NCBI RefSeq assembly: GCF_916619195.1
Contig: NZ_CAKAKL010000015.1
Location: 1-64,000, forward strand
Reading direction: 5' to 3'
Length of the DNA: 64,000 nucleotides
Origin: Inquilinus sp. Marseille-Q2685
GTDB taxonomy: Bacteria > Pseudomonadota > Alphaproteobacteria > DSM-16000 > Inquilinaceae
In this document: in pieces, positions 23,109 to 28,993 of the stretch
How positions within the stretch are numbered: the first letter of the stretch is position 1
How the letters are laid out: every line of letters starts with the position of its first letter
The notes under the pieces: model-generated
Database searches by the model: none
Told to the model about the DNA's origin: nothing
The model's input: only the letters and a program-made list of their open reading frames with translations
Position numbers and translations under genes: made by a program

Positions 23109-23927
23109 CTAATTCAGGCTGCTGCGGAAGGACTGGAGCAGGATCGCCGCCTCGTGGCGCTGGGTCTCCGGCTCGCCGGGGGCGGAGACGTAGCGGTCGA
23201 GGGCGTCGATCGCCGCGCGCATGTTGCCGAGCCGGGCGTAGAGGATGCCGGCTTCGCGCAAGAGCGGCGCGTGGTGGGGGGCGAAGCGGCGCATCGCCTC
23301 GATCACGCCGAGCGCCTTGGCGAACTCGCCGGCGCGGATGTGGCGGACCTTCAGGTTGTTCTGCAGCCGCAGCAGGATGTCGCGGTCCGACACCGGCTCG
23401 TAATGCTCGGGCACCAGCTCGGCCCCGGCGTCGAGCACGGCCTTCAGCAGGTCGCGCAGCTCGCCCGGGCCGCGGCTCATGCCGGCGTGGAACGGGTCGA
23501 GGATGGTGCGGGCGCCGCCGGCGTCGAGCCGGACCAGGAAATGGCTGGGGAAGTTCAGCCCGACCATGGTCCAGCCCTGGGCGCGGGCGACGTGCAGATA
23601 GAGGATGCCGAGCGTCACCGGCAGGCCCTTCCGCCGGTCGATCACCCGCATCAGGTTGGCGTTCTGCAGGTCGTCGTAGCTGTCGACGTCGCCGGCATAA
23701 CCCCAGCGCCGTGCCAGCACCGCGGTCAGCGCTTCGGAGGGAGGCAGCCGCTCGGCCTCACGGGTGACGTCGCCGACCAGCTGGTCGAGATGGCGCCGAT
23801 ACCAGTCGAACCCGACGCCGCGCGGCCGGTCGAGCGCCGCCAGCGCCAGCGCCGCCTCGGCGAGATCGATGGCGTCGTCCGGCTGAGCGCCGGCGCGGTC
23901 GAGTATCGACTGGATCGTCGGGTCCAT
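23109..23927 (-). CDS. SirB1 family protein (transglutaminase-like plus TPR region)
   Basis: This 272-aa cytoplasmic protein has a SirB1 N-terminal transglutaminase-like region: '[20 protein letters not shown]' near residue 88 and '[13 protein letters not shown]' near residue 120. In true transglutaminases a catalytic Cys lies in the first segment; here none is seen, so catalysis is doubtful. The C-terminal third carries TPR-like helices ('[20 protein letters not shown]', '[20 protein letters not shown]'). It lies 11 bases upstream of gshB and is probably cotranscribed with it. The molecular role of this family is unknown. Confidence 0.88.
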
Positions 23928-26741: not shown

Positions 26742-28343
26742 ATGTCGATCGTTCAGCCGAGCCGGCCGAACGAGCAGCCGGGCGGGGGCGGCCCGCCCCC
26801 GGAAGCCCCCGTCGAGATCGAGCTGAAGCTGCGCGTGGCGCCGGGGGATCTCGCCCGGCTTCGCGGTGCGGATGTGCTGACGCGGATCGCGGCCGGGCCC
26901 GGCACCACCCGGTCGCTGACCTCCTTCTACTACGACACGCCGGACTGCGCGCTGCAGCGCCGCGGCGTGACTCTGCGCGTGCGCCGCATCGGCCAGCGCT
27001 TCGTCCAGAGCCTGAAGACCGAGCGCCGCGGCGACGGGCTGGCCCGCGGCGAATGGGAGGTGGCGCTGCCGGCGATGGTGCCGGCGCCCGAGGCCTTCGA
27101 CGACCCGGAGGCGAAGGCGCTGCTGGACGGCGTGCCGGTCGAGGCGCTGACCCATCTCTTCACCTCCCGCATCCAGCGCGAGACCCGGATCCTGTCGCTG
27201 CCGGACGCGGTGGTGGAATGCGCCTTCGACACCGGCACGATCGAGACCCGCGACGCCAGCGACCCGGTGGCGGAGGTCGAGCTGGAGCTGAAGGAGGGCC
27301 GGGCCGCCGCCCTGTACCGGCTGGCGCTGTCCTTCCTGGACGAGGTGCCGCTCAGGGTCAGCGAGGTGACCAAGGCCGAGCGCGGCTATCGCCTGGTGGC
27401 GCGCCGCCCCCCCGGGGTGATGTACGACCCGAAGACGCCGCTGACCTCGCGCATGACGGTGGACGAGGCGATCGCCACCGTGCTGGCCCGGTGCCTGCGG
27501 CACTGGACCGCCAACGAGGCGGCGGCGGAGGATGGCGGCGACCCCGGCGGCGTGCATCAGATGCGGGTGGCGCTGCGCCGGCTGCGGTCGGCGCTGGCCC
27601 TGTTCAAGAAGACCGTGCCCTCGCCCACGCTCGACTGGCTGCGCGAGGAGGCGAAATGGCTGGCCGGCGCGCTGGGGCCGGCGCGCGACTGGGACGTCTT
27701 CCTCAACGCCACGGTCGAGCCGCTGGACACGATGCGGCCGGACGATCCCGGCATCGGCGCCCTGCGCGCCGCGGCGCAGCGCCAGCGCGAGGCGGGATAC
27801 GCCGCGGTGCGCCAGGCCCTGGCCGATCCGCGCTGCGCCCGGCTGCACCTGACCCTCGGCGAGTGGCTGGAGCGGCGGGGCTGGCGCGACCACGCCTCGA
27901 CCGCGACGCTGACCGCGCTGGTCGAGCCGATCGACGGGCTGGCCGGGCGGCTGATCGGCCGGGCGCATCGCAAGGTGGCGACCCGCGGCCGGCATCGCGC
28001 CCGGCTGGACCCGCACCAGCGGCACCAGGTGCGGATCGCGCTGAAGCGGCTGCGCTACGCCATGGATTTCTTCCGCCCGCTGTATCCGGAGAAGCGGGCC
28101 AAGCCCTTCGCGTCGCAGCTGTCGAAGCTGCAGGACGCCTTCGGCCATCTCAACGACGTCGCCACCGCCGAGGCGCTGCTGGCACGCCTGACCGGCGAAT
28201 CCGCGGATCCGGCGCTGCACCGGGCCGCGGGCATGGTGCTGGGCTGGCACGCCCGCGGCGCCGAATCGACCGAGCCGGAGCTGCTGGCGCAATGGGACGC
28301 CTTCCGCGCCGTGAGGCCGTTCTGGACGATTCGGGGGGAATGA
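26742..28343 (+). CDS. CYTH and CHAD domain protein (putative polyphosphate-associated)
   Basis: This 533-aa protein has an N-terminal CYTH domain with the signature ExExK in 'VEIELKLRV' (residues 24-32), which in active members hydrolyses triphosphates. A C-terminal CHAD domain follows with two histidine-rich helices, 'GVHQMRVALRRLRSALALF' near residue 270 and 'HQVRIALKRLRYAMDFF' near residue 430. CHAD proteins bind polyphosphate and localise to polyphosphate granules. I chose ATG 26742 because GGGAG lies seven bases before it; the frame also has ATGs at 26736 and 26712. The stop codon overlaps the start of the next gene (ATGA), an orphan ParA ATPase. Confidence 0.9.
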   Translation: MSIVQPSRPNEQPGGGGPPPEAPVEIELKLRVAPGDLARLRGADVLTRIAAGPGTTRSLTSFYYDTPDCALQRRGVTLRVRRIGQRFVQSLKTERRGDGLARGEWEVALPAMVPAPEAFDDPEAKALLDGVPVEALTHLFTSRIQRETRILSLPDAVVECAFDTGTIETRDASDPVAEVELELKEGRAAALYRLALSFLDEVPLRVSEVTKAERGYRLVARRPPGVMYDPKTPLTSRMTVDEAIATVLARCLRHWTANEAAAEDGGDPGGVHQMRVALRRLRSALALFKKTVPSPTLDWLREEAKWLAGALGPARDWDVFLNATVEPLDTMRPDDPGIGALRAAAQRQREAGYAAVRQALADPRCARLHLTLGEWLERRGWRDHASTATLTALVEPIDGLAGRLIGRAHRKVATRGRHRARLDPHQRHQVRIALKRLRYAMDFFRPLYPEKRAKPFASQLSKLQDAFGHLNDVATAEALLARLTGESADPALHRAAGMVLGWHARGAESTEPELLAQWDAFRAVRPFWTIRGE

Positions 28344-28993
28344 GCATGGGGGATGCCGGCATGATTTCCGTGCTCGTCGCCAACACCAAGGGCGGCTGCG
28401 GCAAGACCACGATCGCGACGACGCTGGCCTCGGCCTTCGCCGGGCAGGGCCGGTTCACCGTCCTGGCCGATGTCGACCGCCAGCATTCCAGCCTGGACTG
28501 GGCCAAGCGCCGGCCGGACGCGGCCCCGGCCCTGGCGGGGCTGGACTGGGCGAAGTCGGAATTCGCGGTGCCGAAGGAGGCCGACCGGCTGGTGATCGAC
28601 GCGCCGGCGGCGCTGAAGATGAAGGATGTCGAGGCGCTGGTGAAGATCGCGGACGTGATCGTCCTGCCGGTGCTGCCCTCGGCCTTCGACGAGGCGGCGA
28701 CCCGCCGGTTCCTGACCCGGCTGGAGGAGCTGAAGCCGATCCGCAAGAGCCGCGCGGCGGTGGCGATCGTTGGCAACCGGATGCGGGTGCGGACCCGGGC
28801 GGCCGCCCAGTTGGACGCCTTCCTGGGCGGGCTGGGGCACACGGTGGTATCGCGGATCCGCGACAGCGCCGCCTATACCGAGGCCGCGGCGGAGGGCCTG
28901 AGCGTGTTCGACCTGCGCGGCCGCCGCGCCGAGGAGCTGCGCGAGGACTGGGCGCCGCTGCTGCGGCATATCGAAGAGGCGGGCGCCGCCTAG
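28340..28993 (+). CDS. Orphan ParA/MinD-family ATPase
   Basis: This 217-aa cytoplasmic protein begins with the deviant Walker A 'NTKGGCGKTTIATTLA' (residues about 14-29), with the signature lysine, and has Walker A' 'VLADVDRQHSSLDWAKRR' near residue 45 and Walker B-like 'DRLVIDAPAAL' near residue 80. It lacks the N-terminal DNA-binding region of chromosomal ParA, and no parB lies nearby. Such orphan ParAs position cargo (chemotaxis arrays, carboxysomes, storage granules) on the nucleoid. Its start overlaps the CHAD gene stop (ATGA), so the CHAD protein or its granule is the natural cargo candidate; this is inference. In-frame ATGs at 28346 and 28361 are alternative starts. Confidence 0.88.
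   Translation: MSMGDAGMISVLVANTKGGCGKTTIATTLASAFAGQGRFTVLADVDRQHSSLDWAKRRPDAAPALAGLDWAKSEFAVPKEADRLVIDAPAALKMKDVEALVKIADVIVLPVLPSAFDEAATRRFLTRLEELKPIRKSRAAVAIVGNRMRVRTRAAAQLDAFLGGLGHTVVSRIRDSAAYTEAAAEGLSVFDLRGRRAEELREDWAPLLRHIEEAGAA

Follow-up and report, generated by a model that had tools for sequence, protein, structure and literature searches.

A CYTH-CHAD gene followed by an orphan ParA gene

The window, i.e. the whole 64,000-nucleotide stretch of DNA analysed here, encodes on its forward strand a CYTH-CHAD protein of 533 amino acids (positions 26742–28343; Pfam CHAD, E-value 3.5e-64, 217 bits; Pfam CYTH, E-value 3.5e-18), followed in the same direction by a ParF-like orphan ParA ATPase (28361–28993; 210 amino acids from the conserved start, identified from Pfam CbiA/AAA_31, alignment and a structural model). 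The pair had been described in a first-pass annotation of the sequence, and both genes are indeed present and co-directional. The other neighbours of the ParA gene encode a lipoprotein, a hypothetical protein and ABC transporter components. At 23540–23632, ARAGORN called a tRNA-Trp that falls within a long ORF of the opposite strand (23109–23927) and is probably a false positive.

In the CYTH-CHAD protein, the CYTH (triphosphate tunnel) domain is N-terminal and the CHAD domain C-terminal. The ExExK motif characteristic of CYTH triphosphate tunnel enzymes is intact and reads EIELK in an alignment including ygiF (5a60). The CHAD domain aligned to the solved CHAD structures 6qv5 and 6qv7 over a region including both basic helix motifs involved in polyphosphate binding (HQMRVALRRLR and HQVRIALKRLRY), and the protein thus has the CHAD fold with the conserved His/Arg/Lys helix motifs that define phosins. 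These motifs were found in all 15 linked proteins compared. The window genome has a single CHAD gene and also encodes PPK1, whose gene adjoins PPK2-like and SixA-like genes on another contig, as read from the sequence.

The ParA protein carries a deviant Walker A motif with the signature lysine (KGGCGKTT), and the residues K10, G11, G12, G14, K15, D37, D39 and D80 are invariant in the ParA alignment, as expected for the ParA/MinD group with its conserved switch aspartates. The best NCBIfam model was NF041546, a ParA family partition ATPase, with a score of 129.2 bits against a curated cut-off of 180; the protein is therefore a relative rather than a member of that family. Among proteins of known structure, ParF/ParA of TP228 and a Synechocystis ParA are nearest to it in sequence. 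The structural model (pLDDT 91) was likewise nearest to ParF/ParA of TP228 (TM-score 0.8), with McdA further down (approximately 0.7). The protein also contains a basic stretch, NRMRVRTRA. The other two matches in the window genome share just 31–34% identity with it.

The ParA start and the gap between the genes

According to the first-pass annotation, the CHAD stop and the ParA start overlap as ATGA, so that the two proteins are made together. An ATGA does lie at 28340–28343 (forward strand), where an alternative start codon in frame with ParA overlaps the CHAD stop codon. This start is not the conserved one: nearly all ParA orthologues begin nine codons before KGG, which in the window corresponds to the ATG at 28361, 17 nt after the CHAD stop. 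Nor is the overlap kept in the genus, where the upstream start is either out of frame or missing; one congener has an out-of-frame ATGA-type start and a gap of 16 nt to the conserved start (L005), and others have gaps of 31 nt (L026), 149 nt (L025), 154 nt (L007) and 249 nt (L042). Coupling is therefore unproven in the window strain, and the argument that the proteins are made together is weak there; ATGA translational coupling was rejected for this strain as unsupported by the conserved ParA start. An ATGA or GTGA overlap exactly at the conserved ParA start was found at three other loci (L038, L131, L134), and three pairs with a second ParA lineage, described below, also overlap exactly in this way (L200, L201, L202). 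Strong hairpin-forming inserts of approximately 130–230 nt separate CHAD and ParA in three congeners (L025, L007, L042) and are absent from the window; those of L025 and L007 share a palindromic GCGAGGAGGCGAAGCCGACGAAGCAATCCAGGGGCC repeat.

Conservation of the pair within Alphaproteobacteria

Conservation was assessed in an evenly drawn sample of 385 alphaproteobacterial genomes and in a second set of 192 relatives. The ParA was present in 18 of the 385 genomes, and in ten of these the gene just upstream, in the same orientation, encodes CHAD. These ten belong to five families (f1, f51, f82, f131 and f80), and CHAD identity among paired genomes falls to about 31%. Of the 192 relatives, 21 carry the ParA, with CHAD directly upstream in 15, and the linked alphaproteobacterial genomes total 19. 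CHAD was found in 17 of the 18 ParA genomes compared to 120 of the 367 without ParA (Fisher P 1.5e-7, relatedness ignored), and the excess persisted where the two genes are unlinked, with CHAD in seven of the eight such genomes (P 0.003, relatedness again ignored). Adjacency in ten of the 17 genomes carrying both genes corresponds to a binomial P of about 1e-28 under a rough model of two neighbours per CHAD that ignores relatedness, and chance is therefore excluded as its cause. The CHAD-ParA pairing is thus real and recurrent, and it has so far gone uninterpreted.

The association is not obligatory in either direction. Of the 18 orthologues of the ParA in the class sample, eight do not lie beside CHAD, one genome of 95% completeness (G339) has the ParA and no CHAD match, and most CHAD genomes lack a ParA of the window type. 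In the ParA tree, the alphaproteobacterial members form one supported clade that includes Acinetobacter-type sequences, and linkage is scattered through this clade, a pattern consistent with a linkage that is old and has been lost several times. The ParAs of Acinetobacter and relatives (L047, L048, L191) branch inside the clade and have no CHAD adjacent; their position suggests gene transfer.

The genes flanking the pair vary between families, and no other candidate cargo gene was found next to it. No ParB or ParG gene was recognised beside ParA in the flanking regions that were read at linked loci, and an arrangement of the ParABS or ParFGH kind was therefore not seen. Alphaproteobacterial CYTH-CHAD genes are often adjoined by a gene for a SixA-type histidine phosphatase and sometimes by PPK1 (L171, L172, L174–L178, L181, L182, L239–L245, L247–L249, L254), which suggests a conserved polyphosphate locus. 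Because the SixA profile also picked up CHAD proteins, SixA counts use hits of about 165–200 amino acids only. The order CHAD-ParA-SixA was seen twice (L041 and L199). Three genera of the family to which the window strain belongs have a gene for a SAM-dependent methyltransferase immediately before the CHAD-ParA pair (L027, L028, L032).

Comparison of window-type CHAD proteins revealed no basic ParA-activating peptide or tail that marks the linked ones. The positions best separating linked from unlinked proteins were H469 and E511, and kinship can explain both. No natural CHAD-ParA fusions occurred among the fetched loci.

A second ParA lineage and pairs outside the class

The analysis also covered the neighbourhoods of another 60 CHAD genes, hand-chosen from match lists. 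At six of these loci, in as many genomes, a different ParA is encoded directly downstream of CHAD (L199–L202, L255, L256). The six ParAs form a 100/100-supported group far from the window type, on a branch of 3.98 in the ParA tree, and they pair with a different CHAD subfamily, the two genes either overlapping or lying no more than 17 nt apart. The pairing has thus evolved repeatedly, and the prediction that adjacency would extend beyond the window strain was borne out both by the five alphaproteobacterial families and by these separate pairings with another ParA lineage. In a broader search, the 30 best second-lineage matches were inspected, and CHAD was found only at the four nearest to the lineage; most of this ParA family therefore does something else, and the notion of the broad family as a CHAD-linked whole was rejected. 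Some second-lineage pairs lie beside GAK-system genes, namely those for an ATP-grasp protein (TIGR04356, L201) and an amphi-Trp protein (TIGR04354, L200). Two of them (L201, L256) also adjoin a gene whose product combines a weakly PhoU-like portion with one resembling an APH kinase.

Outside Alphaproteobacteria, the window-type ParA family is mostly unlinked to CHAD, with direct adjacency in one of 25 cases. A scan of named genomes returned chiefly distant ParAs unaccompanied by CHAD. One genome outside the class (G719, L184) has the reverse gene order, SixA-ParA-CHAD, with SixA upstream, and in another (G640) ParA and CHAD are less than 5 kb apart. In L184 and L188, the neighbours of ParA and CHAD include a putative ion-channel gene and one encoding a DUF6394 protein (by Pfam match in L188).

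Proposed role in positioning polyphosphate granules

Cargoes such as carboxysomes and plasmids are spaced on the nucleoid by ATPases of the ParA type, and other members of the CHAD family localise to polyphosphate granules. The part of the first-pass annotation that tied CHAD to polyphosphate is well founded, given the intact motifs, the frequent SixA and PPK1 neighbours and the specific binding of polyphosphate by CHAD domains reported in the literature (PMC6537752). Reasoning from the linkage, we propose, with a probability of roughly 0.55, that CHAD serves as the adaptor on polyphosphate granules for a nucleoid-based ParA, which would space these granules in an McdAB-like manner. The recurrence of the pairing in unrelated bacteria, with ParA types that are themselves unrelated, makes it probable that the pair positions the phosphate-storage granules of the cell.

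The two genes would then constitute a two-protein cargo-positioning module. The CYTH-CHAD protein would coat or dock on the granule via its CHAD domain and act as a partner of the ParB or McdB kind, and the ATP-bound ParA dimer would bind the nucleoid non-specifically. Stimulation of ATP hydrolysis by the granule-bound CHAD protein would release ParA from the DNA and leave a local zone of ParA depletion, and granules would move towards ParA-rich DNA and so be spaced and shared between daughter cells. We accordingly infer direct contact between CHAD and ParA, ATPase stimulation, DNA binding by the window ParA and a spacing phenotype.

The alternative that survives best, though unlikely, is that CHAD reports the polyphosphate level to ParA, which in turn acts on the chromosome, the division site or another complex, making polyphosphate the signal and not the cargo. 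The unlinked ParA orthologues and the CHAD-less genome G339 suggest that other ParA targets are possible, and the GAK-system genes and PhoU-like kinase beside some second-lineage pairs resemble phosphate signalling; however, neither another candidate cargo nor a ParB is encoded beside the pair, and the flanking genes vary from family to family. Ranking below it, and improbable, is a BcsQ-like arrangement in which ParA places or regulates the CYTH-CHAD enzyme (a triphosphatase, adenylate cyclase or polyphosphatase) or its PPK partner, so that the effect would be on polyphosphate chemistry rather than on the spacing of granules. The window protein and 13 of the 15 linked proteins have an intact ExExK, and for the CYTH-CHAD protein of Acidithiobacillus a role as a class IV adenylate cyclase acting together with PPK has been suggested (PMC6416229). 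In the second lineage, however, ExExK is lost in all six CHAD proteins and the pairing is kept; the enzyme is therefore dispensable for pairing, which suggests that ParA is partnered by CHAD rather than by the enzyme. Least probable is a shared operon kept for dosage or historical reasons whose products never meet, which would suit the several losses of adjacency in the ParA tree and the long repeat-bearing gaps tolerated within the genus, but not two separate ParA lineages with two CHAD subfamilies in both gene orders, nor the co-occurrence of CHAD and ParA even when unlinked.

If granule positioning is the common role, polyphosphate granules in many Pseudomonadota might be actively spaced and inherited via ParA-type ATPases with CHAD adaptors, an arrangement that would then have two or more origins, in unrelated ParA lineages; we hold this generalisation tentatively, at a little under even odds. 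The placement and sharing of polyphosphate granules in bacteria is an open question, for which the CHAD-ParA pair supplies, across many species, a specific ATPase and a specific candidate for the granule adaptor, and repeated pairing with unrelated ParA lineages would mean a general rule and not a curiosity. According to a 2025 review, the proteins that position polyphosphate granules in Caulobacter are not identified and the use of energy is unknown (PMC13052382).

Comparison with described systems

No description of a ParA positioning polyphosphate granules was found in the literature searched, which covered few subscription papers and no preprints, and to this extent the remark in the first-pass annotation that no such system had been described holds; the gene cluster itself, however, had already been shown for Acidithiobacillus (PMC6416229, PMC10892726). 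There, the order folD-ppk-parA-CYTH/CHAD is conserved and the same two protein families, compared at family level, are adjacent together with ppk, but the cluster has been discussed for copper resistance or cAMP signalling only, with no positioning role proposed (PMC10892726, PMC6416229). A known spacing factor for polyphosphate granules is AlgP of Pseudomonas aeruginosa, which shares with our proposal an even, nucleoid-linked spacing of the granules but is a histone H1-like DNA-binding protein and not a ParA-type ATPase (PMC9239181). The orphan ParAs PpfA and ParC, which act on chemoreceptor clusters, also position protein cargo without a ParB (PMC9178275), although their cargo and neighbourhood differ from those of CHAD-ParA.

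Despite its similarity to the window ParA in fold and sequence, ParF/ParA of TP228 acts together with a dedicated partner of the ParB type and a DNA centromere, whereas neither such a partner gene nor a plasmid was seen here. Like CHAD-ParA, the McdAB system of carboxysomes combines an orphan ParA-type ATPase with a cargo-bound partner encoded alongside, and spaces an organelle on the nucleoid as proposed for CHAD-ParA. The proposed cargo of CHAD-ParA is instead a polyphosphate granule and its partner a folded CYTH-CHAD protein, and neither an McdB partner nor carboxysome genes were found among the neighbours of the window ParA. The ATPases differ as well, since the window ParA is ParF-like and keeps the signature lysine, which McdA of S. 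elongatus lacks (PMC6328274). A separate departure from the Walker A consensus was noted in a ParA paralogue (L003, G000:C1:1206381–1206917), in which KGGAGET replaces KGGxGKT and which is encoded a few kb from a ppk1-ppk2-SixA region of the same genome.
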